Positions 15,242-40,542 of a stretch of 64,000 nucleotides of DNA are shown one piece after another. The notes beneath the pieces were generated by a model. It had not been told where the DNA came from. It saw nothing but the letters and a program-made list of their open reading frames with translations, and ran no database searches. Both the position numbers and the translations under genes were made by a program. Source of the DNA: Flavobacterium luteolum (lineage in GTDB: Bacteria > Bacteroidota > Bacteroidia > Flavobacteriales > Flavobacteriaceae); NCBI RefSeq assembly GCF_027111275.1, contig NZ_CP114286.1:4016501-4080500 (forward strand), in the 5' to 3' direction. Positions within the stretch are counted from its first letter, which is position 1, and each line of letters begins with the position of its first letter.

Positions 15242-15883
15242 ATGAAGCAGTTTGTTATAATAATTCTGGTAATGCATTTATTTACAGAAAGCCATGCTCA
15301 AAAATATATTTCGCAAATTCCCTTCAAATATGATTATTCTTTAGAGCTGTTAAAAAAGCAGACACAAATGAATGAAACAGGTTTGAAAAATAGAATTATC
15401 GTTAATGATAATTCAGAGAATTTAAGTGATGAAGTACTTGCCTTAAAAGAAAAATACTCCATTATTCTGGCTGTTATTCCAAATAAAATCACCAACTATA
15501 AATTGTATTCTTATATAGACCCATGGCTTAATACACCATACAAAGAAAAAAGCTTTTCTAAAAAAGGAATCGACAGTTCTTATTTTCTGCAGTCTTTATA
15601 TAGCGACGTTTACAAGGTTACGCTTCCGAAAGATCCTGCAGGTATGTGGAAGTCTAAATCTATACAAATTTTTACTGGCCGCAGTTTCCTTGCCGAAGGT
15701 GATCTTGTTTTCTTTCGATACGATAAAGACCATCCGATATCTGATGTTGGTTTGTACCTGCATAATGACAGAATTCTGGCTTGTACAGAGAAAGGTCTTG
15801 AGATCTATAATTTCAATGATGAATATTTTCAGTTGCGATACATAGGCGCAGGGCGAATTAATGAGGATGGAAAGAAGAAGTAA
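15242..15883 (+). CDS. Exported NlpC/P60-like protein lacking catalytic Cys and His
   Basis: 213 residues with a signal peptide (MKQFVIIILVMHLFTESHAQ). The second half aligns by eye with the NlpC/P60 fold: WLNTPYKEKSFSKKGIDSSYF corresponds to the helix that normally carries D-C-S-G, and FLAEGDLVFF plus ISDVGLYLHNDRIL corresponds to the strand that normally reads H-V-G-I-Y. Ser112 replaces the catalytic Cys and Asp168 replaces the catalytic His, so cell-wall peptidase activity is unlikely. It probably binds peptidoglycan or acts as a structural part of the T6SSiii periplasmic complex. It overlaps tssG by 23 bases, which ties it to the apparatus rather than to the cargo. Confidence 0.72.
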   Translation: MKQFVIIILVMHLFTESHAQKYISQIPFKYDYSLELLKKQTQMNETGLKNRIIVNDNSENLSDEVLALKEKYSIILAVIPNKITNYKLYSYIDPWLNTPYKEKSFSKKGIDSSYFLQSLYSDVYKVTLPKDPAGMWKSKSIQIFTGRSFLAEGDLVFFRYDKDHPISDVGLYLHNDRILACTEKGLEIYNFNDEYFQLRYIGAGRINEDGKKK

Positions 15884-16811
15884 AAAAAGTCTTGAGGATC
15901 TTGCATTCGAAATTGAAAATATTTCGTATGACATTAGGGCTGAAGTTATTGCTAACGAACTTCTTGAGTCCGGGGCAGTTGTGCAGGATGAAATTACGGT
16001 TTCTAATCAGGGGCAATTTTCGCGTGCCTACAGAAGCGACATTTTGGAGGCGGTAATTCAGGATGATAATTATGATAAACAGGAATATTTAAATATACGA
16101 TTATCACGAGATAGTATGTATGATGCGCTTCCAGAAGGTTTTGTGCATAGCTTGACTGAGAATAATTCTGATAAGTCTGTAAAACAGATGATAAGGGAGC
16201 ATAAACATCAGAAAAAGCAAGAAGCTGAAGCTCGTGTTTTTTTTACTCCTTTTGAAAATGAAATTTTTCATTATCGCACTAAAGTAGAAAGTATTGAAAG
16301 GAACTTTTTATATAAACTGAACGGAAGCAAACCGTTGGATTTTTTCTATGATTTTTGGGGATTATCACACATTTACCCTGAAACTTTAGTTTCAAAATTT
16401 ATACAGCTGCTGCCATATGCGTACAAAATAGTGGGAGACATTGAGCTTGCCTGCCATTGTTTATCAAGTATTATTGAAGAAAAAGTAACCTATACAACAA
16501 CAAGTTCTAAAGAATATAGCGAAGAAGGGGAACAGGTCAGGTTAGGAGAAAACAGATTGGGAGTTGATTTTATTACTGGAAAAGATTACATGGATTATTC
16601 CATGAATGTAAGGATAGAAATTGGTCCAATAACCAATAAACCTTATCAGCATTATCTTAAAAACGGGGACATAAAAATATTTATAGATTGTTTTTGCGAA
16701 CATTTTTTTCCAATGGAAGTTGACATAAAAACAGTCTTACTGATTAATAAAGAAACAGAAGAGTTTAATTTTAGTAAAGAACCTGTGTTAGGGTATACAA
16801 CACGAATTTAG
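15861..16811 (+). CDS. tssG: T6SS baseplate subunit TssG
   Basis: 316 residues. The N-terminal half has the helical pattern of TssG including the early LEDLAFEIENISYDIRAEVI and a central ALPEGFVHSL-like segment. The C-terminal part has the diagnostic RLGENRLGVDFITG followed by VRIEIGPITNKPYQHYLKNG, matching the LG..LG and IGP(L) motifs of TssG (VC_A0111 family). TssG with TssE, TssF and TssK builds the cytoplasmic baseplate wedge. The start lies inside the preceding gene; ATG 15867 is an equally possible start. tssN begins 2 bases after its stop, indicating tight coupling. Confidence 0.8.
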   Translation: MRMERRSKKSLEDLAFEIENISYDIRAEVIANELLESGAVVQDEITVSNQGQFSRAYRSDILEAVIQDDNYDKQEYLNIRLSRDSMYDALPEGFVHSLTENNSDKSVKQMIREHKHQKKQEAEARVFFTPFENEIFHYRTKVESIERNFLYKLNGSKPLDFFYDFWGLSHIYPETLVSKFIQLLPYAYKIVGDIELACHCLSSIIEEKVTYTTTSSKEYSEEGEQVRLGENRLGVDFITGKDYMDYSMNVRIEIGPITNKPYQHYLKNGDIKIFIDCFCEHFFPMEVDIKTVLLINKETEEFNFSKEPVLGYTTRI

Positions 16812-16813
16812 TA

Positions 16814-17782
16814 ATGGTAAAGAAGCATTTATTAGCCCTTATTGATATTAGGCTTATTGTATTTTTAGTAGTAATTATAGCGGTAAGCTTTATACTTACG
16901 ATGGTATTCAGCGATAAAATAAAAGAATTTGCAGTACAGTATAAAAGAAAGTTTTACATCTATATTTTTTCATTTGTATTGATTTATGCATTGGTTGGCT
17001 TTTTAGGCTACAATAAATTATTTACAGAGCTTTCAGACGAGTTTCGATTTTATCAAATTGCCTCGCTGTTATTTGGAATCCTTAATGTGTATTTATATCG
17101 ATGGTACTTTAACGAGTTTAACCTAAAAGGCGTTGTGGGTATCGAATTATTGTTTTCATTTTTAGTAACACTTTATTCAAATGTATTATTTGTGATTATT
17201 TATACCGCCTTAAACGGAATTGCACTAACATTTTTAATGTGCTCCCATTTTTTGATATTCATAGTGCCAACTGGAGTTTATGCTGCTTTTAATTACATGA
17301 TGCAGATTCCTCCTAAAGAATATGTGACTTGGAAAATTCCAGAAAGAAAAAATCCCTTTCCTGAGATAGAAAATGTTCAAATGAAAGATTTGTTGTTGAT
17401 TACCTTATTAATCCAGAAAAAAGAAAGTGACACTAAATATACTTCTATAAGATCTAAAGGTCCCGTAAGAATTGATTTTGGGGCGTTGTTCTATCATACT
17501 GTTTCAGGATATAATCAGCATAATGCTGAAAGTAAAATTGATTTAAAAGAAAACGGTGAAAATTGCAGTTGGGTATTCTTTTTACAGCCAAAATGGTATC
17601 AAACAGCCAAATATATAGATGCAAAATATACTTTAGGTATGAATGGTATTACTGAGAATTCGGTGATTATTTGTAAAAGACAGAAAAAAGAAGAAACCAA
17701 AGTAAATAAAAAAGGTAAGGATAAAGAAGGGTTTATGTTCGAACCTAAGATTGAAAATAAAGAAAAAGAGGTTGAAGCTTAA
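16814..17782 (+). CDS. tssN: T6SSiii membrane protein TssN
   Basis: 322 residues. Five hydrophobic segments fill about residues 10-165, followed by a cytoplasmic domain with KNPFPEIENVQMKDLLLITL, GPVRIDFGALFYHTVSGYN and SWVFFLQPKWYQTAKYI, ending in a lysine/glutamate-rich tail. This architecture and these motifs match TssN, found only in Bacteroidota T6SS. In Bacteroides fragilis TssN links the membrane complex to the baseplate. The gene sits directly behind tssG, which supports that role here. Confidence 0.85.
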   Translation: MVKKHLLALIDIRLIVFLVVIIAVSFILTMVFSDKIKEFAVQYKRKFYIYIFSFVLIYALVGFLGYNKLFTELSDEFRFYQIASLLFGILNVYLYRWYFNEFNLKGVVGIELLFSFLVTLYSNVLFVIIYTALNGIALTFLMCSHFLIFIVPTGVYAAFNYMMQIPPKEYVTWKIPERKNPFPEIENVQMKDLLLITLLIQKKESDTKYTSIRSKGPVRIDFGALFYHTVSGYNQHNAESKIDLKENGENCSWVFFLQPKWYQTAKYIDAKYTLGMNGITENSVIICKRQKKEETKVNKKGKDKEGFMFEPKIENKEKEVEA

Positions 17783-17797: not shown

Positions 17798-18871
17798 ATG
17801 TATTACGAAGACAAACCCGAAGAATCCCCATACAATAAGTTTCGTACTTATAAAATCCAGAAAGGAGATACTCTGGCAAGTGTTGCTCAAGATCTTGGTG
17901 TTGAGGCTGATGAGCTTAGATGGTATCATAATATGTATTGTGAGATTCAGGATTTAATAGAAGCAGATTTCAAAAGCTATTCTCAGTTTTTAATTCTGGC
18001 ACCGGAAAAATATATTGAAGAAAGAAAAGAAAAAGAGGAGAAAAATGCTCAAAAAGTAAGTTTGGGAAGTGATTATACATTGCCATTTGTTGCAGACAAA
18101 ATTAATAATGATTTCCACGTTAATTACACCACTGTTTTTGGAGATGCTGTTGATACAATAGAAATGAAAGTAAGTGTAAAATGGCTTGCTACTGATAGAA
18201 ACAATTATCATTTGTTTGAAATAGAAAAAGGATCTATTTATGTAAATAATAGTATACCAGATACCATTATGGATGAACTGGCTGCAAAAACTGCTGCTGT
18301 TTTATATCCATTAAAAATTGTGGTGGATGAATCTGGAAAGTGGGTTGATATTTACAATTATAGTGAAATAGAAAGCCGATGGAAAGATACTAAAGAAGAA
18401 GTTCTGGATTATTTTGAAGGGGAGGTTGCCGAAAATTATATTGAATATTCAGAATATGCTTTAGAAAATTCTGAAACATTATTTAATTCTCTTGCTTCAG
18501 ATTATTTTTTGAGAGCTTTTTTTAACGGCATTTACGTTGGTTATACCTCAAATTATTCGTTTCAAAAAGAAGTCTTTTTTCCATTAGAAAAAGAAGAAGA
18601 ATCGAAGTTTGCGGTGCAGCAAAAGATAGATTCTATTTTAGATGATTCAAATTTGGTGAAAGTAGAGCAAAAAGGAGATTTTGTAGATTCTGGTGGTGAA
18701 ACCAGTTTTGGATTTGACCCGTGGAAAGGAAAATTCAACGCTTCGTATTTTCTGGATGAACATAGTTATTGTATTGAAAAGATAGATTTAGAATGCAGTA
18801 TTGAGTATGATGAACCAATAAAAGTGATCATACAAATTGAATCTTTAAAGAAAGAAGAAAATCAGAAGTAA
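17798..18871 (+). CDS. Cytosolic LysM-domain protein of the T6SS cluster
   Basis: 357 residues, no signal peptide or membrane segment. A LysM module occupies about residues 16-67 (YKIQKGDTLASVAQDLGV), then a charged linker and a domain of about 270 residues with many acidic and aromatic positions that I do not recognise. LysM normally binds peptidoglycan, but in phage-type injection machines LysM proteins inside the cell join the spike hub to the baseplate (for example Afp7-like proteins). Location between tssN and the PAAR-like gene fits that reading. The family function remains inference. Confidence 0.65.
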   Translation: MYYEDKPEESPYNKFRTYKIQKGDTLASVAQDLGVEADELRWYHNMYCEIQDLIEADFKSYSQFLILAPEKYIEERKEKEEKNAQKVSLGSDYTLPFVADKINNDFHVNYTTVFGDAVDTIEMKVSVKWLATDRNNYHLFEIEKGSIYVNNSIPDTIMDELAAKTAAVLYPLKIVVDESGKWVDIYNYSEIESRWKDTKEEVLDYFEGEVAENYIEYSEYALENSETLFNSLASDYFLRAFFNGIYVGYTSNYSFQKEVFFPLEKEEESKFAVQQKIDSILDDSNLVKVEQKGDFVDSGGETSFGFDPWKGKFNASYFLDEHSYCIEKIDLECSIEYDEPIKVIIQIESLKKEENQK

Positions 18872-18922: not shown

Positions 18923-19417
18923 ATGAGTGAGAAACATATAGTAGTTCAGGGAGCTTCACTAAAATGTAAATTTAGCGTAGAACCTAAAAAAGATATATTA
19001 AAAGTAAAATCGCAGAATAAGCATTATGCTAATGATAAAGATGCTGAGAAAAAACTCATTGCGACCGACAAAGAAATTGGACAGACTTTAGAGAAAAATA
19101 CTTTTGGGAAATGCAAAATGCAGCCAAACGGAAGCGGTGATTATCTGCCGTGTCAGGCCACAATTACTAAGTGGATTGCTTTTTACGAAAAAGTAACCTT
19201 GAGTAATCAAGGGAAGATTTTACTAGAAGACAGTAAAGGAACCTGTCCTATTGGAGGGCCAGATTGTATAGAAGTTGATAAACATGGTCAAAAAGCAGAA
19301 GCGAGCAAGCAAAATGCTAAAAAAGCGAAACCGCAGGTAAATAATCAAATAAATCCTTTGGTTAATACCTCAAAATTTCAGGAGAGTTTAGAAGAGAGTG
19401 ATTCTATTTGTAAATAA
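18923..19417 (+). CDS. DUF4280 PAAR-like spike-tip protein
   Basis: 164 residues. The start MSEKHIVVQGASLKCKFS, the central FGKCKMQPNGSGDYLPC and the closing GTCPIGGPDC follow the conserved Cys and G-rich pattern of DUF4280, a PAAR-like family that caps VgrG or related spikes. The last 45 residues are a disordered K/Q-rich tail. The effector gene follows after 11 bases, so this tip protein probably carries that effector. Confidence 0.82.
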   Translation: MSEKHIVVQGASLKCKFSVEPKKDILKVKSQNKHYANDKDAEKKLIATDKEIGQTLEKNTFGKCKMQPNGSGDYLPCQATITKWIAFYEKVTLSNQGKILLEDSKGTCPIGGPDCIEVDKHGQKAEASKQNAKKAKPQVNNQINPLVNTSKFQESLEESDSICK

Positions 19418-19428
19418 AATAAAATAGT

Positions 19429-22050
19429 ATGTCAGATTTTAAAATAATTGGAAATCCGGATCCTGTTGTAGGTAAGGAAGAATTCTATTCGGTAAATACT
19501 TTTTTACCCAATGTTCTGCCTTTTCAAAACCCAGTTTCTAGCAATAGTTTTGAACAGCCAGTAAAATGGGAAATATACATTCTTGAAAATGGAAGATGGC
19601 GCAAGACAAAAGAAAATGATAAAACGGGAAAAAGAATTTCTTATACATTCTTGCAAAAGAGTTTAAATAGAAAAGGTATCCGTATTTTGGCAAGAAGAGG
19701 GCAAGATGTGGCACGTCTTAATGTAACCACACATCCAGCCGAAAAACCAAAAATTGAGAGTATTGAATTACTGGATAAAAACGGACAAAAACCAGCAAAA
19801 CCGCTTTCTTACGGACAGACTCTAAAAGCAAGGGCTCACTGTCTTCATATGGAAAAACAAAAGGTATATGTTACCTTGTGGGAAGATGATGCTACTGGTG
19901 CCGGACATAACAAAGCAAACGAAAAGAATCTAATACAAACACTCTCAGGAGTTGTTGCAAACGGTAAAGCAGATGTTGACTTTTTGCTGAGACCAAGTTT
20001 TGCTAAAATAGCAAATAGAAGTAAAGACGAAGGCAATATTCATGAGTATTATGTTACTGTAGATTTTAATAAAGAAAAAATTGCAAGTAACAATGTGAAT
20101 GTGCATGACCTTGAAGCACCGGTTGCGCCCTATAAGGCAACGACAACACCAAAAGAAGCTGAAAAGCCAAGCAATCCTACCAAGAAAGATTCTCCAAAGC
20201 AAGATGCATCAGGTGCTAAAAAAGAAAAGGGGCGAATCAATTCAGTGAATCTTACTGACACAGCTGGAAATAAGATTAAAGGAACGTTTAAAGAAAAACA
20301 GATTAAAGTCTGGATTAACTCAACAGGGTTAAAAGGAAAGGATATCAGCTTAAAACTATATGACGAAGATGTAGCTAGCAACGATTTACTGTTTCAGCAG
20401 GAATTTACGCTAAAATCTGATTTGCATGCGATTGTTGTGCCTCTAGATACAATTCCTCGAAGCCTTGGAGGAAATTTTTGGACTGAAGGTGCAGAACAGG
20501 AACTGTTTGCAGAAGTAAAAGTGTTGCAGGCAAATGATTTAAAAAAGAGTGAGGTCGTAGATGTAGATGCTGAAGTTTTTAAACAGGATCCTGTAGAGCA
20601 GACTAATAAGACTGCGAAGGTTGGAGAGGGTGAAAAGAGTGGCGGGAAAAATGAGAAAAAGGGCACTTGTGATGAATGCACTAAGCCTATAACAGCTAAG
20701 CAATTAAAAGATATTTTCCCTAAAGCTGATTCAGCAAAATTAGAGAAAGTAGCCGCAACGTATACTAAATATATGAAAGATTTAGGAATGGATACTTGTT
20801 GGAATAAAGCACATTTATTTGCTCAGGCAAGAGTTGAGTCCGGTTTAAGTTTAGAATTAAAAGAAGGAGAAGGATTTAATTATTATTATGAGAGTTTATC
20901 AATTTTTAAAGCATTTCAAACCAAAGAAGGGAAAGAAAAAGCAAAATTATGGGGTAGACCAACAATCAGACCTAAAAAGCCAGGAGTTTCGTTAGAGGAT
21001 CAAAAAAAAATAGCTAATTGGGCATATTCTCCTCCAGCAAAAAAAGCAAAAGAAATAGGGAATACTGAAGCAAATGATGGTTGGAACTATAGAGGTAGAG
21101 GATTAGTCCAAGTAACAGGAAAAGGTTTTTATGAGTATTGTAATTTATATACAAAAAAAAATAGTTTAGATGTTGTTAAAAAACCAGACTTAATAGGCGA
21201 AAGCATTGAGTTATCTATATTGAGTTCTATGATTTTCTTTAAGTGGAAGAATTTGAATACAATCGCAAATAAAACACATGATGTAGTAAATAAAATCTGT
21301 CCTAAAGTTGGTAATGATGTAAAAATTAAGGATGAAAAAGGTAAGTCTTCATCAAATTATATAGAAAAGCAAAAAGCATTTAACGAAGTAACATCTGAAG
21401 CATTTAAAATTGATAACTGTAAATGGGGAGAAAAAGTTGAAATTCCTAAAACAAAGGGGAAATTTTCGACATATGATAATGAGTATTCAGCAGAATCAAA
21501 AACCGCATATATTAATGTTATTGTTCCTAAGGATAGAAGAACAGAAGGAATGTTTGTATTTTTTGATGACACAGAAATAGTGCAGAAAGGTTACGCGTTA
21601 GCAATGGGAACAGTTAACAATAATTTCTTTGAGAGAAATGGAAAAGGAAGTACCCCTACTGGACTTTGGTCATCTTCTTATTCAAAAACTCACATTGGTG
21701 AAGCGAGTTATGGAGATTATGGTTTAATTCACATAGATGGAATGACTGGAGATGCAAAAAAAGCTACTGCACCTGGGAAAAGAGATGGAATTGCTATTCA
21801 TAGTGGACACACTACTAAAGTTGGAATAAATGATAATGGCCCGTTAATGGTTACTTATGGATGCATTAGAGTATATAATGCTGACATGAAAGAATTAGTT
21901 GAAAATTATAATAAAGTTAAGGGCAAAGGAAAAACAATTTATGTCTATGTTGAAGAAGTAGATTCTATGGATGATGTATACAAAGACTACGATATGGTTG
22001 TTGATCCCAAAGATAAAAGAAGAAATTATAGTAAAAATGCAAAACAATAA
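19429..22050 (+). CDS. T6SS effector: Ig-like delivery region, GH19 muramidase/chitinase-like domain and L,D-transpeptidase (YkuD)-like domain
   Basis: 873 residues, no signal peptide. Residues 1-400 are beta-rich repeats (KIESIELLDKNGQ near 105 and GRINSVNLTDTAGN near 268 head two similar modules) of the type found next to DUF4280 genes. A K/G-rich linker leads to CDECTKPITAKQLKDIF. Residues 420-660 resemble GH19/lysozyme-like hydrolases, with the likely catalytic Glu470 in AQARVESGL and NYRGRGLVQVTG at 553-564. Residues 690-850 resemble YkuD L,D-transpeptidases, with His791 in IAIHSGH and Cys812 in YGCIRV. Both domains predict attack on peptidoglycan. Codon use becomes more AT-rich from about base 20690, suggesting the toxin part was acquired separately from the delivery part. 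Confidence 0.82.
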   Translation: MSDFKIIGNPDPVVGKEEFYSVNTFLPNVLPFQNPVSSNSFEQPVKWEIYILENGRWRKTKENDKTGKRISYTFLQKSLNRKGIRILARRGQDVARLNVTTHPAEKPKIESIELLDKNGQKPAKPLSYGQTLKARAHCLHMEKQKVYVTLWEDDATGAGHNKANEKNLIQTLSGVVANGKADVDFLLRPSFAKIANRSKDEGNIHEYYVTVDFNKEKIASNNVNVHDLEAPVAPYKATTTPKEAEKPSNPTKKDSPKQDASGAKKEKGRINSVNLTDTAGNKIKGTFKEKQIKVWINSTGLKGKDISLKLYDEDVASNDLLFQQEFTLKSDLHAIVVPLDTIPRSLGGNFWTEGAEQELFAEVKVLQANDLKKSEVVDVDAEVFKQDPVEQTNKTAKVGEGEKSGGKNEKKGTCDECTKPITAKQLKDIFPKADSAKLEKVAATYTKYMKDLGMDTCWNKAHLFAQARVESGLSLELKEGEGFNYYYESLSIFKAFQTKEGKEKAKLWGRPTIRPKKPGVSLEDQKKIANWAYSPPAKKAKEIGNTEANDGWNYRGRGLVQVTGKGFYEYCNLYTKKNSLDVVKKPDLIGESIELSILSSMIFFKWKNLNTIANKTHDVVNKICPKVGNDVKIKDEKGKSSSNYIEKQKAFNEVTSEAFKIDNCKWGEKVEIPKTKGKFSTYDNEYSAESKTAYINVIVPKDRRTEGMFVFFDDTEIVQKGYALAMGTVNNNFFERNGKGSTPTGLWSSSYSKTHIGEASYGDYGLIHIDGMTGDAKKATAPGKRDGIAIHSGHTTKVGINDNGPLMVTYGCIRVYNADMKELVENYNKVKGKGKTIYVYVEEVDSMDDVYKDYDMVVDPKDKRRNYSKNAKQ

Positions 22051-22054
22051 TTCA

Positions 22055-23200
22055 ATGAAAAGAACAATTATTTTATCTATTATAACGATGTTAGTTATTA
22101 GTTGTAATTCTCAAACAAAGGAAAAAAAAATGGAAGTTAAAGGGTCAATAAAAAAAAACGAAGATAAGTTATATGCCGAATATATACCATTAATGAGAGA
22201 TTTGTTAAAAGGCAATGGTTATAAATTCCTAGAGCATAGTGAATTTAAGAATAAGGTTGTTGAATATTTCGGAGTTGATATTGATAATGCAAAATTTAAT
22301 GATGTTTATTTAGAAAGTGGGCTTGGATATACAGCTTTGAGTTATGAAGGTTTTATAGATACTTATCAAGTTGATAGAGGTGTAATTGATGGAGCTGGAG
22401 ATGCTTTTGCAGATATTTTAAAAGATGGACTGAATAATGATTATAATATTGATTTTATAAACTACAATAAGATTTTATTTAATGATGATTTATCTGCAAT
22501 ATCAAAAGTAAACTTAGATAAAGATAAAGTTGAAGATATTGTTGTGTATTTAAATTATGAAAAAAACAATCTTTTAAATAATTCATTTGTAAAGAATATA
22601 AAGAAGGTTGACAATTATAATGAAAGTTTTAAATGGCATCTTCTATGGTATAATAATAAAACAAAACCAGATGTAATTAGAAAAAAAATATTGCAAGATA
22701 TAGCTAATAAAAAGCCTGATTTTATTTTTGATTTAGCTTATTTTCTGAAAAACAATTCTAATAAAATTAAAGAGAAAACAGATGGTTCATTGATTGATGC
22801 CACACTAGCTTTTTTAATAGAAGTTGAATTGCAGCATTATGAAGATAAGGATTTGAATGATAATAAAGGTTACAGTTTGCTTAATAATTTTTATATTCAA
22901 AATCCTAAGATGTTAGACAGATTTAAATCTCAAAAATTTTATGGATATCCATTAATTGACAGTTATACTAAAAAGTACTTATTAATGTCAGAAGAAAATG
23001 AGATTTCTTATGGTAAAGTTATCGATCCTGATGGCTACACTAACGTGAGAAAAGATAAAAATAGTACATCAGCTATAATTGAAAAAATTAAATCAGGCGA
23101 AAGAGTTGAAATATTAAATGATTCAGAAAATTGGTGGCTGATAAAAACAAATTCTGGAAAGAAAGGATATGTTTATAAAACCAAAATTAAATCTGAATAA
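22055..23200 (+). CDS. SH3b-domain lipoprotein, likely immunity to the adjacent wall effector
   Basis: 381 residues from the ATG at 22055, 5 bases after the effector stop; longer in-frame starts at 22037 or 21971 overlap the effector and bury the signal. MKRTIILSIITMLVISC is a lipoprotein signal peptide with the modified Cys at 17. The body is helical and acidic with no family I recognise. The last 65 residues form a bacterial SH3 module (TNVRKDKNSTSAIIEKI, WWLIKTNSGKKGYVY). Periplasmic location, wall-binding module and coupling to a peptidoglycan-degrading effector make immunity the best guess. No direct evidence for inhibition exists in the sequence. Confidence 0.65.
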   Translation: MKRTIILSIITMLVISCNSQTKEKKMEVKGSIKKNEDKLYAEYIPLMRDLLKGNGYKFLEHSEFKNKVVEYFGVDIDNAKFNDVYLESGLGYTALSYEGFIDTYQVDRGVIDGAGDAFADILKDGLNNDYNIDFINYNKILFNDDLSAISKVNLDKDKVEDIVVYLNYEKNNLLNNSFVKNIKKVDNYNESFKWHLLWYNNKTKPDVIRKKILQDIANKKPDFIFDLAYFLKNNSNKIKEKTDGSLIDATLAFLIEVELQHYEDKDLNDNKGYSLLNNFYIQNPKMLDRFKSQKFYGYPLIDSYTKKYLLMSEENEISYGKVIDPDGYTNVRKDKNSTSAIIEKIKSGERVEILNDSENWWLIKTNSGKKGYVYKTKIKSE

Positions 23201-24817: not shown

Positions 24818-25403
24818 ATGAAATTATTATTAAAAATATTGATATTAAGCCTCTTAATAAATTTCATGTAATGGGCAAGTTTCAAATAAGAAAAATCAGG
24901 TTTCAAATGAGAATAGAAACATTGCATATTTTTATGATTATGATTTAGATCAAGACGGAATAAAAGATAAAATTATACTTTATACAAATGATGAAGAAAA
25001 AGGAGAGTTTGAGAGAATTCATTTTGGACTTTCAATGGAAATAAAAAATGGGTTGCCAAATAATACTTTTCAAACGTGGTATGAAAATAATAATATTATT
25101 TCCAAGAACGATTTTAACTGTGCTGCAGAAGGATTTAATAGAATTGTATTTAAAGGGAATTATTTTACAATAGAAGATTATATATGTTCTGATAATATAT
25201 CTATTTCAACTTATATTACTTTCAACGTATTTAAGGACAAAATACTTCTTCATAAATACAGTCAAACCTACTTTGACAAAGCCGATCACGATAAAAAAAT
25301 ACCATCAAAAACTTGGACAAAAAAAGATTTTAATGATATTAATTTTGAAGATGTTACTGAAGATTTTTTGCTAAAGTTAAGTCAAACAAAACCGAAAAAA
25401 TAA
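24818..25403 (+). pseudogene. Frameshifted lipoprotein gene with a D-rich (calcium-loop-like) repeat
   Basis: Starting at ATG 24818 the frame gives a signal peptide, MKLLLKILILSLLINF, and then stops at 24869. The neighbouring frame, open from 24861, supplies the missing lipobox and mature protein: ISCNGQVSNKKNQ, then YDYDLDQDGIKDKIILY and on to the stop at 25403. Together they make one lipoprotein of about 195 residues, broken by a small deletion near 24866 where a 5-base TTCAT repeat unit may have been lost. The first ATG in the intact part is at 25035, giving 122 residues without export signal. A sequencing error would also explain it. Another candidate orphan immunity gene. Confidence 0.65.
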
Positions 25404-29311: not shown

Positions 29312-29824
29312 ATGGAAGTATTAAATAAACAAGAACGCCAAAAAGCATTTATTGCTTTTTTAATTGCCTTTATCTTGACTTTTTTGGTTATGCTGATTGC
29401 AGTTTCGTTCAACTTTTACATGCCCGTAGCAGAAAACAAAATGCTGAAAGCAGAAAATGAAATGATGAAAAGAGAATACGATTATCAAACTAATTTTTCG
29501 GTTAAAATTGACAGTATCAGAATGACAATCGATTCAATCAATTCGCCAAAAGTAGATAACGATTTTCAGCAGCGACTGGCAAATGTTATGATCGCCAATA
29601 TTTATCAAAAAGTTCCCAAAGACACTACCGAAAACAAAAAATTATATAACAATGTTATTCTAGCCTACAAGAATATCATTGATTACAAAAAACAAATTAG
29701 AAGCCTTACACACAATTCGCACCTAATAGACAGTTTGAACCAGTCGGCTAAAACCTACAAAGAAGAGTTAGAAAAAGTAAGCAGAGACTTAGATGTATGT
29801 CGTCAGGTTTACCAAAATCAATAA
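29312..29824 (+). CDS. tssO: T6SSiii membrane-complex protein TssO
   Basis: 170 residues. A short cytoplasmic N-terminus (MEVLNKQERQKAF), one membrane helix at about 13-36, then a periplasmic coiled coil with long charged heptads (ENKMLKAENEMMKREYDYQ) to the end. This is the layout of TssO, a Bacteroidota-specific subunit of the TssNQOPR complex. Its place between tssK and tssB agrees. The name is assigned from architecture and context. Confidence 0.78.
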   Translation: MEVLNKQERQKAFIAFLIAFILTFLVMLIAVSFNFYMPVAENKMLKAENEMMKREYDYQTNFSVKIDSIRMTIDSINSPKVDNDFQQRLANVMIANIYQKVPKDTTENKKLYNNVILAYKNIIDYKKQIRSLTHNSHLIDSLNQSAKTYKEELEKVSRDLDVCRQVYQNQ

Positions 29825-30348: not shown

Positions 30349-31719
30349 ATGTCAAGTAAAGAAGCATATAAAGGTGATCTAGATACAGCAGTATTAGAGC
30401 CAAAAGCAGTAAAAGGAATTTCAATTGAAAGAAATGTTGAAAAACTGGCTAAATACGGCGGTTTTGATTTATTAGAAATGGCAATTGAAGGAGTTCAGAA
30501 CCTTAATCCAGAGAGAAAAGCAAGAAGAAAAATCTTTTTAGGTGAAGTAAACAAAGCAAAAGAAAGAGAAACACTTTTAAAAACATTAGAACTTTGGACT
30601 TCGGTTTTAAGCAATAATGAAGCTTTGACTGACATGGTAGCGCAAAGTGAAGACAAATGCAAAGAATCTGAAGCTTTATTGCAAAAAAACCTTGCGAAAG
30701 CTGTTGAAGATACACGAGAAATTGAGGCAGCTTACAGAACGTTAGCTTTATTCTTTAAAAATACAGAATCTGATAAAGTAAAAAATGTTACGATTGTAAA
30801 CGCAGAATTAGATCAGTTAAAAGATCTTGACAATACTCGTTTTATTGATGCAATTCACTCAGAATTAGTAGATAATTACGATCGTTTAGATCTTAAAAAC
30901 AACTACGGTATTTTGGTAATTCCAGGCTATTTAGGATCAAATAAAGTAATCGAAAAATGGGCGAAAATTGCGCATGAAAACAAAGTAATGTTGGTTACAG
31001 ATTTCGAACATCTTGACGAACCGGATGATGTAATGGAAATGTTTGACGCTGCTTCTTTAACAGGAGGAGATGTGTACCGTTCTAACGTAATCATGACTTG
31101 CAACTGGCTTGTTGGGCGTGGAAGATTTGATCAAATTGAAGAAAACGAAGATTTGCACATTGCGCCTTCTGCAGCATTAGCAGGAAAAATTTACAAAACA
31201 TTAATGTCTCAAGTTACTGCGGGTAAGAAATTTGGAGGAATTAATGAAGTTGACGGAGTGAAATTTGATCTTAAGAAAAGCGAAATCGCTAATCTTGAAA
31301 ACTTAGGATTGGTTCCGATGGTAAATGAATACGGAAAAGTAATGGCTTTCTCTGCTAAAACATTATTCAGCGGAGATAACTTAGGATTACAAACTTATTC
31401 TGTAGTTCGTGTTTTTGACTATGTGACTAAAGTATTAATGGATTTCCTTAACCGTCGTGCTTTCGAAAACTTTACTGCTAAAACACGTAAAGAAATTATG
31501 AATCAGATCGTTGCTTTCCTTGACGGAATCACTGGTCCAGATAAATTAATTGAGAATTTTGAAATCCGCAGATTCGAACAAGATCCAATTCAAAAAGACA
31601 GAATTTATATGGATATCCATATGAAACCGTATTTCCCGGCTAAAAACTTCCTTATTAAAATGGATGGTCACAAAGGTGATGACGGAACAGAATGGGATAC
31701 AGATTACGAACAAAAATAA
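30349..31719 (+). CDS. tssC: T6SS contractile sheath large subunit TssC (VipB)
   Basis: 456 residues, the normal length of Bacteroidota TssC. It contains YDRLDLKNNYGILVIPGYLG, the LTGGDVYRSNVIMTCNWLVG segment and a C-terminal sheath domain with EIRRFEQDPIQKDRIYMDIH, MKPYFPAKNFLIKM. The N-terminal region holds the helix contacted by ClpV through TssB. A strong terminator follows the gene, so the downstream genes probably depend on read-through or their own promoters. Confidence 0.93.
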   Translation: MSSKEAYKGDLDTAVLEPKAVKGISIERNVEKLAKYGGFDLLEMAIEGVQNLNPERKARRKIFLGEVNKAKERETLLKTLELWTSVLSNNEALTDMVAQSEDKCKESEALLQKNLAKAVEDTREIEAAYRTLALFFKNTESDKVKNVTIVNAELDQLKDLDNTRFIDAIHSELVDNYDRLDLKNNYGILVIPGYLGSNKVIEKWAKIAHENKVMLVTDFEHLDEPDDVMEMFDAASLTGGDVYRSNVIMTCNWLVGRGRFDQIEENEDLHIAPSAALAGKIYKTLMSQVTAGKKFGGINEVDGVKFDLKKSEIANLENLGLVPMVNEYGKVMAFSAKTLFSGDNLGLQTYSVVRVFDYVTKVLMDFLNRRAFENFTAKTRKEIMNQIVAFLDGITGPDKLIENFEIRRFEQDPIQKDRIYMDIHMKPYFPAKNFLIKMDGHKGDDGTEWDTDYEQK

Positions 31720-34699: not shown

Positions 34700-36508
34700 A
34701 TGGCACATTTTTCAGAACAAGTACATATAACTATAGGAGGTTTCACCCAAAACGTTGTTTATTATGATCTAAAGCTATCTCAAAAAATGGCCGACCATCA
34801 TCATTTTTCTTTCGTTTGGCAATATACTGGCAAAGCGGTAATTAAGCCTGCTGACCAAGCCAAGGCACTTAGAACCTATCTTGGAGATGAGGTAATTTTT
34901 ACTTTTAAAAGTCTTACAGGAATTAGACTAATGAGCAAAGGTATAATTACAGAACTTTCTTCTATTGATGTTGATGGAAGCCCAGCAGGATTGCACGTTT
35001 CTGGCATAAGTCACAGTATCGTTATTGATGATATGAAAAAAGCAAGAACATTTAAAGAGCGCAGTATGGATGATATCGTGCTGAGTATTTTTGCTGAAGG
35101 CCCAGGAGAATTTTATCAAAGGGAGTCTATTAAATCAACTTATCTAAAAGAATTTAAAAACCTTTTGCAATACAACGAAACCAGTTTTGAGTTTCTAAAA
35201 AGACTAGCAAAACGCCATGGACAATGGTTTTATTTTGATGGAATGCGTATGCAGTTCGGACAAACAAAAAATAGCCAGACCAAATTGATTAATGGCGCTT
35301 CGCTGCATAGTTTTAAGATACAGGCTAATATGAGTTCGCATAAAATTTCGCTGAACGGTTACGATTATAAAAACGTATCGACTCTTCGGGAAGCAGCGAC
35401 TAAAACTTCGTTTGGCAGTAAAGACAGTTTCGCTACTATTGTAGGTTACAATCAAGGAACAGTAGCAAATTCTGATTTAAACAATGCTGCTTACACTACA
35501 AATGCCGTAAATAAAGACGAACTCGATGAGATGGTAAAACTGCAAACTGCGGGCAATGATGCCAACAGTATATATTACAGCGGTATTTCTTATTTTCCAA
35601 TTGGTCTAGGACAGGTTTTTACAATTCAAAATCAAACGGTACAGCACGAATTAATAGCTGTTGAAGTGATACATCATTCTCAAGTGCACGGAAATTACTC
35701 TTGCGAGTTTAAAGCAATTCCAGCAGATGTATCTGCACCACATTATACCGATGTATTTGTTTACAGTAAAGCAGAAACGCAGCCAGCACGAGTAAAAGAC
35801 AATAATGATCCAGAAGGATTAGGACGTGTAAAAGTAGAATTTTACGGTGCAAGCGGTACGGCAGTCACAGATTGGATAAGAATGGTACAGCCTTATACTG
35901 GTGCAGGAAAAGGATTTTATTTTATTCCTGAAATTGGAGAAGAAGTCTTAATTGGTTTTGAAGGCAATAATGTGCAGAATCCGTATGTAATTGGAGCACA
36001 GTATAACGGACAAGATTCAAGCGGTTATGCTGATGCACAGAATAATGTAAAAGCAATTCATACTAGAAGTGGTCATATAATAAAATTTACCGAAGATGAA
36101 AGTATTATAATTACCGACAAAAACAGTAACGAAATAGTAATTGATACTGTTGCAGGAGATATTAATATTACTGCCAACAACACGATTAATTTTAATGCGA
36201 AAGATATTAATCTAAATGCTTCTCAGAATATTACGGCTAATGCTGGAATGAATATTACAGAAAGTGCTGGAGCCGATAAAATGAGTATTGTAGGTATGAT
36301 GCTTAATACTACTGTTGGTGGTGATAATATGTTGTCAGTTACTGGGAATTTTATGGAAAATATTGAGGGTAATTTGGAATCGCATACTGCTAAAGAAAGA
36401 CAAGAAATTGCAGTTAAAGGAATTGATAATAGTAGTGAAGGTGGAATAAATAAACACTCTAAAAAAGAAATGCAGGTTAATAGTGCCGAAAAATCTAAAT
36501 CTTACTAA
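34700..36508 (+). CDS. tssI: T6SS spike protein VgrG (TssI)
   Basis: 602 residues. The gp27-like N-terminal domain contains FEFLKRLAKRHGQWFYFDG, and the gp5-like OB region shows ARVKDNNDPEGLGRVKVEF, TDWIRMVQPYTGAGKGFYF and PEIGEEVLIGFE. The C-terminal third is the repetitive beta-prism (GDINITANNTINFNAKDINL) ending without an extra toxin domain. It forms the trimeric puncturing tip. The following effector starts 3 bases after the VgrG stop. Confidence 0.94.
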   Translation: MAHFSEQVHITIGGFTQNVVYYDLKLSQKMADHHHFSFVWQYTGKAVIKPADQAKALRTYLGDEVIFTFKSLTGIRLMSKGIITELSSIDVDGSPAGLHVSGISHSIVIDDMKKARTFKERSMDDIVLSIFAEGPGEFYQRESIKSTYLKEFKNLLQYNETSFEFLKRLAKRHGQWFYFDGMRMQFGQTKNSQTKLINGASLHSFKIQANMSSHKISLNGYDYKNVSTLREAATKTSFGSKDSFATIVGYNQGTVANSDLNNAAYTTNAVNKDELDEMVKLQTAGNDANSIYYSGISYFPIGLGQVFTIQNQTVQHELIAVEVIHHSQVHGNYSCEFKAIPADVSAPHYTDVFVYSKAETQPARVKDNNDPEGLGRVKVEFYGASGTAVTDWIRMVQPYTGAGKGFYFIPEIGEEVLIGFEGNNVQNPYVIGAQYNGQDSSGYADAQNNVKAIHTRSGHIIKFTEDESIIITDKNSNEIVIDTVAGDINITANNTINFNAKDINLNASQNITANAGMNITESAGADKMSIVGMMLNTTVGGDNMLSVTGNFMENIEGNLESHTAKERQEIAVKGIDNSSEGGINKHSKKEMQVNSAEKSKSY

Positions 36509-36511
36509 TGT

Positions 36512-38944
36512 ATGAGCAGAATAAGAATTGTAGGAGGCACTATAACAAAAACTACTGGAGGAGATCATAATATTTATTCGGAAGGCAATATTGTTTATAA
36601 TTCTGGTACGTCAGTTAGTTTAACAAGTGATGTAGGTATTAGTTATGGAGAGCCGAAAAATCCTCCAAGACAAGAAATTGTTGAGAGCAAATATAAACTT
36701 GAAAGTATATATGCACATGAACAGCTTTCAGCTTTGGCAAAACAACTAGATGAATTGCCTTTTATGTTTTTTATGGTTGGAGTTTTTGGTGAAGAAATTG
36801 AAGCCAGTGCATTAAGTAAATTATACAGAGGACTTAGTGATAAGTCTATAATTTCACCAGAAATTGTAGTTACAAAATTTCCTGCTCGAGGAAGAAAAGC
36901 CAATTACAGCAATAGTAGGAAAAAAATACTGGTATGGGAACATTTTATCGATCTAGCTGTAAAAGACAATGATGCAAGGGCAGAATTAATGTCGGCTTTG
37001 GTGGAAGAATATGGTCATCATATTGATAATTTGTTAAGAACAGAACTCGCAACTAATGGCAAGGAAGATACAGATTATATAGACGAAGGTGCGAAGTTTG
37101 CCTATGCTTTATTTAATTTTGATATTTTTAAAGAAACACAGCTTTGTTTTGCCAAAGCAGAAACCCCAAACTTTACAGGAGATTTAATAATAGATTTTTC
37201 TGAGCTACATACACAAGTAAAAGAGTATGTAAGCGAGGATAAACAATATGATGCCAACCCAAAAGAAGATGAGGAAGGTTTTGGTGCAGGGTTTGAGGCC
37301 GGAATGCATGGAGGGATAGAAAAAGAGGCATTAGAGGAATTTGTTAGAAGTAAAAAGATTACCGAATTAGAAGTAAAGCAAATTTATTATGGAAACTGGC
37401 TACGTGATTATTCTCAAATTATATTAGAAAGTACAATACGACTTGAAAAACCTGATATTGATAAAATAAAAAAGAGTGGAATTGAGCATCTTAATGGGCT
37501 GTTAAAAATGAATCCATACAAAATGTCTCACGAGGGTTTGGTAAAGCTTTTGGAAATATTGGCGGCCAAAGAATTTGTATTTGGGTCTGATAAATTTACT
37601 CCTAATTATAAAAACCATGTTAGGGCTTTTCAAAAAGAGTATGGGGTGCTTACTAAAGATATTTTAGGTATATACCGACCAGAAGAACATATAGACAATC
37701 CGAAAGGTCTTAAAGATTTTAGTAGTTTAAGTGTTTCTTTTCAATACGAACATGCCAAAGGAAGCTTTGTTACTAGAAAGTTGTATGCAGGAGAAGATGC
37801 TAAATCGCTTGCAATAAACGAACTGAACGTAAAAAATTATATAGCTACAAAAGGTGGTGGCGCGACAGATCCTGAAAGGCCAACATCTGATGCATATATG
37901 ACTCAACAGCTAAAACTTGCGGTACAGTACGGTAGAAATAAAGATGGTTTTAGACATTTGGGAGCAGCTTTTCATGTACTTGAAGATTTTTTCTCACACA
38001 CTAATTTTATAGAAATAACTTTAATAAAGGCAGGAAGTATGCTTCTTGACAAAAACGAGAATAGTACCTTAGGCAAAGAATTAGTTTTGGTTTACCCTTG
38101 GGTACAAGGTATGCAGGGGCAGGATTATAGTACGATACCTATAATAACAGGCAAGTTTTTATTAGATGACACTATGGCAAGTGTGTTGCCTAAAGCGGGT
38201 GAAAAAATGTTTCCAATTGGTATACAGGATTATGTACAGCGAAAACCTGGTGATAGAACTTTTCAAGATGCTTTTATACTTACCACTTTAGAAGATTTAT
38301 CTACTGGGCAACAGACAGATGGCCTAGAGAAAGATCCTGTTTATATGGGGATGAAGAGTTCGGACTTGCTTGCTATGTATAAAAATTATTTAAAACTGAT
38401 TGATACCAAGGCCGCTGCTGTAGAATATACTGGCTGGTTAGGAAGAACAATAGACAAAGGGTTAAGTTATATGGGAGATTCCTTAACGACTTTTAATAAT
38501 ATCGCATACAATTTGCTCTTGGGGTCAGTAGATGATGATGTAAAAATAGAACAAACAGAAAATAGCAATAAAAATTATGGCACCGACCCAACGCATACAC
38601 AAGTAGCCAAAGATGCTCTTAACCATCCATTAAACCCACTTGCGTCTGAGCTTGCTAAAATAGCAGTAAAAGATGTCGCGACAAGAATTCTGGATATCTG
38701 GAAAACGGGGAGTGATCCTACAGGCGAAGAGCTTGCCAAATATGTGATAAATAAATATACTTTGCATCCCGTTTATCAGGTTACAGATTGGGCTAATGAA
38801 GCAGTTAATAAATGGGCAAAAAAAAATGATATAGAGGTTATTAAGAGACTTCAGAGTACTACTCCATATGACCATGCTGAGAAGGTTACACAAAGAGCGA
38901 TTAGCAACAAAAAAGTGCAGGAAATTTTAAATTATTTTAAATGA
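36512..38944 (+). CDS. VgrG-linked effector with Het-C domain and EExGHH motif
   Basis: 810 residues, no signal peptide. Residues 1-50 carry RIRIVGGTITKTTGGDHNI and SLTSDVGISYGEPKNPP, a glycine-rich lead that looks like a delivery tag. A metalloprotease-like VEEYGHHID lies at 164-172. Residues 280-560 match the Het-C family: IYYGNWLRDYSQ (291-302) and HLGAAFHVLEDFFSHTNF (482-499) with the expected acidic and His residues. Het-C domains occur in fungal incompatibility proteins and bacterial T6SS toxins, where they resemble zinc-dependent phospholipase C. A membrane-lipid target is therefore plausible. The stop overlaps the next gene's start as ATGA. Confidence 0.8.
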   Translation: MSRIRIVGGTITKTTGGDHNIYSEGNIVYNSGTSVSLTSDVGISYGEPKNPPRQEIVESKYKLESIYAHEQLSALAKQLDELPFMFFMVGVFGEEIEASALSKLYRGLSDKSIISPEIVVTKFPARGRKANYSNSRKKILVWEHFIDLAVKDNDARAELMSALVEEYGHHIDNLLRTELATNGKEDTDYIDEGAKFAYALFNFDIFKETQLCFAKAETPNFTGDLIIDFSELHTQVKEYVSEDKQYDANPKEDEEGFGAGFEAGMHGGIEKEALEEFVRSKKITELEVKQIYYGNWLRDYSQIILESTIRLEKPDIDKIKKSGIEHLNGLLKMNPYKMSHEGLVKLLEILAAKEFVFGSDKFTPNYKNHVRAFQKEYGVLTKDILGIYRPEEHIDNPKGLKDFSSLSVSFQYEHAKGSFVTRKLYAGEDAKSLAINELNVKNYIATKGGGATDPERPTSDAYMTQQLKLAVQYGRNKDGFRHLGAAFHVLEDFFSHTNFIEITLIKAGSMLLDKNENSTLGKELVLVYPWVQGMQGQDYSTIPIITGKFLLDDTMASVLPKAGEKMFPIGIQDYVQRKPGDRTFQDAFILTTLEDLSTGQQTDGLEKDPVYMGMKSSDLLAMYKNYLKLIDTKAAAVEYTGWLGRTIDKGLSYMGDSLTTFNNIAYNLLLGSVDDDVKIEQTENSNKNYGTDPTHTQVAKDALNHPLNPLASELAKIAVKDVATRILDIWKTGSDPTGEELAKYVINKYTLHPVYQVTDWANEAVNKWAKKNDIEVIKRLQSTTPYDHAEKVTQRAISNKKVQEILNYFK

Positions 38945-39729
38945 AACAATTCGTAATAATAATATTGAGTAGTTTTTTTATGCAATGTCAAACTTCAAAA
39001 AAAGAATCCATGTCAGAAACCGATTTTTATATTAGTGAACATAGTATTACTTACAAAAACAAGGAATTGCCATTTGGTAAACCTGTGAGCGAATGGGTGA
39101 AAATTTTTGGAAAATATAGTAGAATATATCAAACAAGTGTATATATCTGGGACGATTTAGGAATTTATGTTTCTGAATCAGAGAAAAATAAAAACATTGA
39201 TGAACTTCATATCTTCTTTATGAACCTTGACAGTCCTTTGGGGCAGATGGGAAAATTAGAAGAAGCTAGAGGTAGAATGTCAGTAAAGTTTGTCAAGGAA
39301 CGTAATCATAAAGATGGATGGTTTCCTGAAAAAACAGATCCTGAATTCTATGTTGAGATGTTAAATGACGAGAGAAATGGCTCAGACGCTCCTAAAAATT
39401 TTATTTATCCCTTTAAAATTTATGCAAAACCGTTGAATATAGAGGGAGCAGAAGTAAAAGCAGGTATGAAAGTGTCAGATATTAATAAGAAAAGAGAAGC
39501 AGTAGATTTACCCGTTATCAAGTATTACGATGCTGATTTAAATACAAAACTAGAAGATGGTTCTGTTACTACTTTGTCCAATGGTTATTTTACAACATTT
39601 AGTGGTTTCCTGACTCCCGAAGAACAAGCCAGAGCCAATTTTTATAATATCATGTATCGCCAAACCGAAGGCGAGATAGAGTACATTCGTATTGTACATG
39701 ATAAAGGGCAGGAGTATTCTAAATTTTAA
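38941..39729 (+). CDS. Lipoprotein coupled to the Het-C effector, likely immunity protein (copy 1)
   Basis: 262 residues. Start overlaps the effector stop (ATGA), a sign of translational coupling. MKQFVIIILSSFFMQC is a lipoprotein signal with Cys16. The mature part has FYISEHSITYKNKELPFGKP, VYIWDDLGIYV and IFFMNLDSPLGQMGKL, resembling lipoproteins I associate with DUF7738 (not certain). A periplasmic lipoprotein next to a periplasm-acting toxin is the usual immunity arrangement. The next gene is its paralogue. Confidence 0.68.
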   Translation: MKQFVIIILSSFFMQCQTSKKESMSETDFYISEHSITYKNKELPFGKPVSEWVKIFGKYSRIYQTSVYIWDDLGIYVSESEKNKNIDELHIFFMNLDSPLGQMGKLEEARGRMSVKFVKERNHKDGWFPEKTDPEFYVEMLNDERNGSDAPKNFIYPFKIYAKPLNIEGAEVKAGMKVSDINKKREAVDLPVIKYYDADLNTKLEDGSVTTLSNGYFTTFSGFLTPEEQARANFYNIMYRQTEGEIEYIRIVHDKGQEYSKF

Positions 39730-39732
39730 GAA

Positions 39733-40542
39733 ATGAAATGTTTTTTAATATTTTTTTTAAGCATCATCTTAATACAATGCCAAAGTAAAAATACGGATAT
39801 GCCAGAAACCGATTTCTACATCAGCGAACATAATATTACTTACAAAAAACAAGAATTGCCTTTTGGTAAACCTGTCACAGAATGGGTAAAAGTTTTTGGT
39901 AAGTATGATAGAGTTAATCCTCCTTTAGGAAAAGAGGGAGTTGTACGTCGGGACTATATTTGGGATAATTTAGGATTGGCTGTAGAAGAACATGGTGAAG
40001 ATGGGAAAAAGAAAATTATACCAGATTTTTATATTTTTTTTATGAATCTTGACAGTCCTTTAGGTCAGATGGGAAAACTGAAAGAAGCTAAAGGAAGAGT
40101 ATCTGTAGCATTTATAAAGGAAAAAGACAAAAGAACAGGATGGTTTACTTCTGATGCAGATTATGTCGAGATGGAAAAAAGGATAACAATAGGTTCAGAT
40201 GCTCCGCAAAATTTTATTTATCCATTTAAGATTTATAGTAAATCGTTAAACATAGAGGGAGCAGAAGTTAAAGAAGGTATGAAAGTGTCCGATATTAATA
40301 AAAAAAGGATGGCGGCAGATTTGCCTGTCATTAAGTATTGGGATGCCGATATGAATAACAAGCATGAAGATGGCTCTACAACAACTTTGTCAAATGGCTA
40401 TTTTACCTCTTTTAATGGTTTTAGTAGCCCAGAAGAACAAACCAAAGCCGATTTTTATAATATAATGTATCGCCAGACAGAAGGTGAGATAGAATATATT
40501 CATATCGTGCATGATAAAGGGCAGGAATATTTTAAGTTTTAA
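39733..40542 (+). CDS. Paralogue of the preceding lipoprotein (copy 2)
   Basis: 269 residues, 3 bases after copy 1. The signal peptide (MKCFLIFFLSIILIQC) and nearly all motifs are shared (FYISEHNITYKKQELPFGKP, FFMNLDSPLGQMGKLKEA, NFIYPFKIYSKSLNIEGAEV, YNIMYRQTEGEIEYI), so it is a tandem duplication that has diverged. An insertion near residues 60-90 (NPPLGKEGVVRRDY) distinguishes it. Duplicates of this kind may protect against effector variants of competitors. Confidence 0.68.
   Translation: MKCFLIFFLSIILIQCQSKNTDMPETDFYISEHNITYKKQELPFGKPVTEWVKVFGKYDRVNPPLGKEGVVRRDYIWDNLGLAVEEHGEDGKKKIIPDFYIFFMNLDSPLGQMGKLKEAKGRVSVAFIKEKDKRTGWFTSDADYVEMEKRITIGSDAPQNFIYPFKIYSKSLNIEGAEVKEGMKVSDINKKRMAADLPVIKYWDADMNNKHEDGSTTTLSNGYFTSFNGFSSPEEQTKADFYNIMYRQTEGEIEYIHIVHDKGQEYFKF

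Follow-up and report, generated by a model that had tools for sequence, protein, structure and literature searches.

A probable GH19–YkuD wall effector in a Flavobacterium type VI secretion locus belongs to a module-swapping family

Introduction

Does the 873-residue protein encoded directly behind a DUF4280 tip gene in Flavobacterium luteolum carry two wall-attacking enzymes in one chain, and how did such a pair come to stand there? The gene lies in a 64,000-nucleotide stretch of the genome (positions 4,016,501 to 4,080,500 of NZ_CP114286.1; hereafter the window), inside a type VI secretion system (T6SS) locus of the Bacteroidota type, T6SSiii. The source genome is a single 5.36-Mb contig, and the top protein matches among named genomes come from Flavobacterium. 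To our knowledge, the wall effectors of the Bacteroidota T6SSiii have been little studied. A first-pass annotation, made from the window alone, had proposed that a GH19 hydrolase and a YkuD transpeptidase-like domain share one frame here. Our analysis describes a probable toxin that pairs a sugar-chain cutter with a peptide-side-chain enzyme within a contact-dependent injection system. The reading that we consider likely is that the protein is an antibacterial cargo or tip effector of the T6SSiii, in which wall attack by GH19 and YkuD modules is combined with lipoprotein immunity and an exchangeable tail. The computed support covers the domains, folds, active-site residues, locus, mosaic identity, and displaced tails.

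Results

One frame carries a GH19 module followed by a YkuD module

The effector gene (19429–22050, + strand) is intact, encoding 873 amino acids in a single frame without internal stops; the opposite strand is stop-rich in the one frame translated. The N-terminal region (residues 1–404; 19429–20640, +) is common to effectors with other C-termini, shows a mean column identity of 45% in a 40-row alignment, and probably serves delivery, judging from its sequence. It is followed by a GH19 module of the lysozyme/endolysin type (residues 405–673; 20641–21447, +) and by a YkuD module of the L,D-transpeptidase fold (residues 674–873; 21448–22047, +). The residue positions named at first pass are right: E470 lies in ARVESG, GRGLVQVTG spans residues 556–564, and H791 precedes C812 in YGCIRV. 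Structure prediction and fold search, set beforehand as the test, supported both folds. Together with the conserved active-site residues, the two predicted models bear out the proposal that GH19 and YkuD regions occupy one frame.

The predicted model of the GH19 module is consistent with a GH19 fold. E470 (codon 20836–20838, +), likely the first catalytic acid, is Glu in all 44 rows of a GH19 alignment, and E481 (20869–20871, +), likely the second, is Glu in 39, Asp in 4, and Asn in 1; the position of E479 is variable in the same alignment. The likely catalytic role of E470 and E481 is drawn by analogy with the effector TseP. For the YkuD module, we take His followed by [ST]xGCxR to be the active-site motif of the L,D-transpeptidase fold; the window protein has H791 (21799–21801, +) and T-Y-G-C812-I-R814, with the nucleophile Cys and the motif Arg of YGCIR encoded at 21862–21870 (+). 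The His, Cys, and Arg are each kept in 7/7 two-domain proteins. PF03734 (YkuD) scores 33.4 bits against a cut-off of 23.4, compared with 26.2 bits in the relative L097, and YkuD is the only Pfam family detected in the window effector.

Several observations weigh against this two-enzyme reading. The GH19 module of the window protein has no PF00182 match above the Pfam cut-off; the domain search proposed at first pass thus recovered YkuD above its cut-off but missed GH19 in the window protein, while the relatives L041, L103, and L008 match PF00182 above it. Tyr precedes the Gly-Cys pair in the window motif, where His stands in the other subtype. A profile of the YkuD module searched by sequence against PDB chains gave no match at E up to 1, and parts of the YkuD model, including its residues 83–85, 123–125, and last eight, have a low predicted local distance difference test score. 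Finally, the common fold alone cannot tell which bond is cut.

The YkuD fold match was obtained with the predicted model of the module. We take Bd1075 to be an L,D-carboxypeptidase. The top five Foldseek rows for the model are Csd6, Pgp2 (three rows), and Bd1075, and Csd6 and Pgp2 are named as L,D-carboxypeptidases in the portions of the literature available to us. In Z, Pgp2 leads the best transpeptidase by 1.6 and Csd6 by 0.6, where differences below 1 count as a tie. Since the model lies nearest to L,D-carboxypeptidases, by a small margin, stem trimming appears likelier than crosslink cutting; the model favors removal of the terminal D-Ala, or its exchange as in Tlde1a, over crosslink cleavage. 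The earlier claim that the protein cuts both glycan strands and peptide stems accordingly holds for the presence of both domains with intact active sites, but "stem cutting" exceeds what the fold allows. The same Foldseek rows and the lead of Pgp2 over the best transpeptidase speak against an alternative in which the module, rather than trimming stems, builds crosslinks, swaps D-amino acids, or links another component to the wall, which we regard as unlikely while giving it more weight than any of the other alternatives considered below.

GH19–YkuD is one of several forms within a module-swapping family

Relatives match the window protein over residues 1–410, over residues 1 to about 670, or over the full length. 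The tails were defined from an initial set of 52 non-redundant GH19 proteins with a length of 300 amino acids or more; 12 with fewer than 140 residues past the GH19 match were excluded (among them L094, L095, and L013, which run off the end of the available DNA), and 40 were kept. The GH19 profile matches L008, L044, L027, and the second L097 protein, all among the 40, only as two weaker pieces. Pfam scans were run singly on 32 of the 40, and the other eight (L040, L003, L032, L002, L031, L044, L048, and the second L097 protein) were placed by BLAST clustering only. The 40 proteins fall into ten tail groups: CHAP-type (7), YkuD (7), M23 (6), an unnamed Cys-type represented by L006 (5), DUF5675 (4), a second CHAP/TIGR02594-type (3), two metallopeptidase-like types (3 and 3), and the singles L103 and L027. 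Among the 32 scanned tails, Pfam assigned M23 to six, CHAP to nine (seven below the curated cut-off), DUF5675 to three, YkuD to two, and weak M74 and BtrH_N matches to one each, leaving ten with no match; none of the 32 matched a nuclease, lipase, or pore-forming family.

The L006-type tail (L006:3535–4143, with relatives in L066, L079, L078, and L091) comprises about 200 residues behind GH19 with conserved H and GC motifs. It has no Pfam or PDB match and is a candidate for a new family of peptidoglycan enzymes.

The N-terminal region also occurs in proteins without a GH19 match. Of about 15 such proteins, 10 were checked: six of these end in a phage lysozyme and also have a weak peptidoglycan-binding match, and the other four show the binding match alone, a weak CHAP match, only a weak Ig match, and nothing, respectively. 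The layout effector N-terminus, weak peptidoglycan-binding match, approximately 260–290 residues without a Pfam match, and C-terminal phage lysozyme was observed in L038, L039, L042, L046, L048, and L051. The shared N-terminal arm seems to serve wall attack in general. One further protein, in L045 (6001–8424), counts against a fixed pair: it joins the effector N-terminus to a C-terminal YkuD domain (PF03734 above cut-off) with no GH19-profile match, and YkuD is therefore not strictly tied to GH19.

The Flavobacterium wall-effector family is modular, consisting of the shared N-terminus or a fused DUF4280 domain, then GH19, then an exchangeable tail. The single-protein view taken at first pass is correct in that the GH19–YkuD pair is real, but the family swaps modules and this pair is one of its states, a point that could not be seen from the window alone.

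Identity along the chain is mosaic. Compared with the window protein, L032 is 91% identical in the N-terminus, 56% in GH19, 51% in YkuD, and 39% in the lipoprotein encoded next downstream, and L002 is 59%, 81%, 88%, and 65% identical in the same order. For both, the shift in 40-residue windows falls near residues 400–440. The GC content at third codon positions (GC3) drops from 26.5 in the N-terminus to 19.0 in GH19 and 19.5 in YkuD, and the lipoprotein gene has 16.8. In L006, L004, and L034, which bear other tails, the GH19 modules are 39–54% identical to that of the window. The identity mosaic and GC3 point to exchange of a GH19–YkuD–immunity block behind a resident N-terminus.

The YkuD module is rare, being found in 8 of 299 Flavobacterium genomes (G159 marginally, E 9.6e-4) and in 3 of 296 phylum-wide genomes, the window's own counted; in five of the eight Flavobacterium genomes GH19 stands in the same frame. 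Displaced YkuD pieces were found in two genomes. In G334, a 248-residue frame (L108:8717–9265) matches the GH19 query over its final 32 residues and the 198-residue YkuD query over residues 3–190, and sits between TssN and later T6SS genes. In G054, residues 118–195 of the YkuD query (L109:6569–6841) likewise lie between T6SS genes, behind a GH19–DUF5675 effector, and are followed by a homologue of the YkuD-associated candidate immunity gene. Because identity and GC3 shift near the border of the N-terminus and GH19, and because displaced YkuD tails occur in these two genomes, the tails seem to move as cassettes.

These data also bear on a reading in which GH19 alone kills and the YkuD module is a non-catalytic, wall-binding or regulatory part. 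In the available portions of the report on Tae17, the glycan cutter weighs more in killing than the amidase (PMC11796386), and the poorly predicted parts of the YkuD model would suit such a role. Against this stand the motif residues kept in all seven two-domain proteins, the occupation of the tail slot by unrelated enzyme folds (M23, CHAP, and YkuD) rather than by one binding domain, and the retention in G054 of a displaced YkuD tail beside its immunity homologue. We consider a non-catalytic YkuD module improbable.

The effector gene belongs to a T6SSiii locus

The effector gene lies inside a Bacteroidota T6SSiii locus, with TssG, TssN, TssO, TssC, VgrG, and DUF4280 genes around it. Upstream are TssG (15861–16811, +; PF06996 E 8.6e-8) and TssN of the T6SSiii membrane complex (16814–17782, +; PF17555 E 6.9e-79). 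The DUF4280 (PAAR-like) tip gene (18923–19417, +; PF14107 E 5.1e-20) directly precedes the effector, and a gene whose product matches LysM weakly (17798–18871, +; PF01476 E 0.0043, below cut-off) stands between the TssN and DUF4280 genes. Downstream are a gene at 28120, which had no Pfam match and which we take to be TssK from its position, TssO (29312–29824, +; PF17561 E 3.8e-20), the TssC sheath (30349–31719, +; PF17541 E 2.8e-236), and a VgrG-type spike (34700–36508, +; PF04717 E 4.8e-23, PF05954 E 1.4e-14). The T6SS-effector context proposed at first pass is borne out by the adjoining tip gene and an adjoining candidate immunity lipoprotein.

DUF4280 proteins have been proposed as PAAR-like in the accessible portions of two reports (PMC5349215, PMC5014421). 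The domain is N-terminal in all eight GH19-plus-tail proteins longer than 1,200 residues among the matches listed (L097, L093, L052, L054, L090, L124, L092, and L123), and L097 is a DUF4280...GH19–YkuD fusion. This fusion of DUF4280 to the relatives ties the GH19-plus-tail enzymes to the spike tip. Separately, DUF4280 genes with approximately 67% DNA identity to the window tip gene occur on the Tenacibaculum finnmarkense plasmids CP116296.1 and CP116298.1 without the effector.

Across 299 Flavobacterium genomes, TssC was found in 49. Two-module GH19 proteins occur in 24 genomes, a set compiled by hand, and 22 of these 24 have TssC (Fisher p about 1e-17, an optimistic value with shared ancestry uncorrected). 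As controls, TssC was found in 10 of the 36 other genomes that have a GH19 match and in 17 of the 239 that have none; for the 36, p is 0.057 relative to all remaining genomes and 0.0007 relative to those lacking any GH19 match. An earlier hand-picked control of 36 genomes whose GH19 genes are short or C-terminal (9 with TssC, p 0.15) was rejected, as it shared five genomes with the 24 and omitted G169, G237, G253, G307, and G334, all with TssC. The T6SS link is by far strongest for the two-module form; other GH19 genomes lean the same way, far less.

Two genomes run counter to this link: G057 (L110) and G158 (L097) both bear the YkuD form, and neither TssC nor TssN was found in either. A phage-sheath-type gene in G057 makes a different injector possible there, and inspection by eye of 19 kb around its copy recognized no T6SS gene. 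These exceptions may reflect another injector or a recent arrival. A general alternative, that a different contractile injector carries the protein or that some hosts keep the gene as a relic, draws on the same two genomes but is very unlikely given the position of the window copy within a T6SSiii locus and the presence of TssC in nearly all two-module genomes. Still less probable, and in our view scarcely credible, is that the gene is a phage-derived endolysin with no special role. GH19 relatives do appear among the best 15 of 99 phage records and the best 10 of 33 plasmid records, mostly annotated as endolysin or GH19 protein, and many Flavobacterium GH19 frames are about 190–250 residues long. 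However, no phage or plasmid record spans 80% of the region 401–873, and the effector N-terminus, the T6SS neighbors, and the lipoprotein partner are all present.

In the same locus, a Het-C-domain protein (36512–38944; PF07217 E 2.7e-36) is encoded right behind the VgrG gene and is followed by two similar lipoprotein-like genes (38941–39729 and 39733–40542). This group appears to be a further effector accompanied by duplicated immunity genes.

Candidate immunity lipoproteins and a shared SH3 end

The candidate immunity lipoprotein, of 381 amino acids (22055–23200, +), starts with an ATG at 22055, 4 bases past the effector stop, and has a signal-like start ending MLVISC; the mechanical open reading frame begins at 21971 and overlaps the effector. 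Its C-terminus contains an SH3 domain (residues 329–374; 23039–23176, +; PF08239 E 2.3e-10 on the longer reading frame). These features suggest that it is likely the immunity protein. The effector slot also contains a piece of another immunity-type lipoprotein gene (25035–25403, +), a remnant of 122 amino acids with 89% identity to the last third of a 378-residue lipoprotein in L053.

The first downstream gene was compared in 21 hand-chosen cases, including two displaced tails. One lipoprotein family stands next downstream of the YkuD-bearing effector in 6/7 loci, with a weak relative in the seventh, L097. Lipoproteins 89.5–91.9% identical to that of the window also occur at non-YkuD loci, namely L036/L114 (L006-type tail) and L038 (phage lysozyme), in line with the behavior of immunity arrays. 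Lipoproteins that neighbor YkuD, DUF5675, and L006-type effectors have in common their C-terminal 60 residues, which comprise SH3 and are 44–82% identical, even in cases of unrelated sequence elsewhere; the genes sharing this end are the window gene and those in L031, L036, L043, L044, L053, and L109. For M23, CHAP, and metallopeptidase-like effectors, the first downstream lipoproteins examined (L034, L037, L041, L052, L054, and L055) gave no match to it. The pattern has exceptions, as the lipoproteins beside the YkuD effectors of L097 and L045 lack the match, and a separate SH3-bearing gene lies farther downstream in the L034 locus.

Discussion

The antibacterial T6SSiii reading suggests the following course. 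The N-terminal region would dock on the PAAR-like tip, the product of the adjacent upstream DUF4280 gene, and the protein would be fired into the periplasm of a rival. There the GH19 module would cleave the glycan backbone through E470 and E481, and the YkuD module, through Cys812 and His791, may attack the bond between meso-diaminopimelate and D-Ala in the stem tetrapeptide, trimming or exchanging D-Ala4. Their joint action would breach the wall and also deprive L,D-transpeptidases of the tetrapeptide donors used in repair, while the periplasmic lipoprotein encoded directly downstream would guard the producer. Over time, the GH19–tail–immunity block, or the tail alone, would be exchanged behind the conserved N-terminus, giving one delivery arm with many second blades.

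The first-pass annotation knew of no T6SS effector that combines the two activities. The idea of a dual-enzyme wall effector is already in print: two-enzyme wall effectors are known from Proteobacteria (TseP, Tae17, Tse4, and WHIX subclass II). What seems new is the GH19 and YkuD pair, and a swappable second blade behind GH19 in T6SSiii. We take Tlde1/Tlde1a to be a single-domain toxin. The window protein has a GH19 module, whereas the available part of the Tlde1/Tlde1a report mentions no glycosidase domain (PMC9638812). TseP of Aeromonas dhakensis, according to the accessible sections of its report, joins an amidase to a lysozyme domain solved with the SPN1S endolysin as search model (PMC11893102), a domain that shares the fold predicted for the GH19 module of the window protein. 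The term "GH19" is absent from the main text of that paper. In TseP, as far as those sections describe it, the zinc amidase comes first and the lysozyme last, whereas in the window protein GH19 is central and the last module, exchanged among relatives, is YkuD.

Tae17 and Tse4 of Acinetobacter baumannii likewise join a glycan cutter and a peptide cutter in a single T6SS effector, in the portions of the papers available (PMC11796386; for Tse4 also via PMC11893102). There a lytic transglycosylase is paired with an amidase in Tae17 and with an endopeptidase in Tse4, in contrast to GH19 with YkuD in the window. WHIX subclass II effectors, as described in the accessible part of their report, are polymorphic T6SS wall effectors with two toxic domains, the C-termini including GH19 and lysozyme types and the N-termini M23, NlpC/P60, and M15-like types, with the pairs unspecified (PMC12135965). 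In that description WHIX lies between the toxic domains, whereas both enzymes of the window protein are consecutive at the C-terminus, a distinction drawn from domain order. The window family differs further in its delivery via the N-terminal region or a fused DUF4280, its place in the Bacteroidota T6SSiii, and its YkuD partner; neither "YkuD" nor "Bacteroid-" appears in the main text of the WHIX paper (PMC12135965). A GH19–YkuD effector was not found among the papers listed by full-text searches, as judged by titles and the starts of abstracts, a weak absence with subscription papers and preprints mostly outside the literature searched.

The family also resembles polymorphic toxin systems, for which the accessible portions of a survey describe a conserved trafficking N-terminus, an exchangeable C-terminal toxin, standalone cassettes, and polyimmunity loci (PMC3482391). 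The displaced YkuD leftovers would, by analogy, fit the cassette replacement described there. Unlike those systems, so far as these portions describe them, this family often retains the catalytic GH19 after the N-terminus and varies the second enzyme. As a tentative and more speculative extension, a constant GH19 glycanase with a traded tail (L,D-carboxypeptidase, DUF5675, M23, CHAP, or metallopeptidase) and lipoprotein immunity might outpace the immunity of rivals; the common SH3 might guard the stems of the producer or block Cys enzymes, with the rest of the lipoprotein providing specificity.

The finding brings to the T6SSiii of Bacteroidota an idea known from Proteobacteria, that of the two-enzyme wall effector. 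A lead on how immunity to toxins of the L,D-transpeptidase fold may work comes from the SH3 pattern among the immunity-type genes. With the same arm, a related glycanase, and a differing second blade, the family is a natural matched set for asking why two blades are carried and whether one immunity protein can block both.

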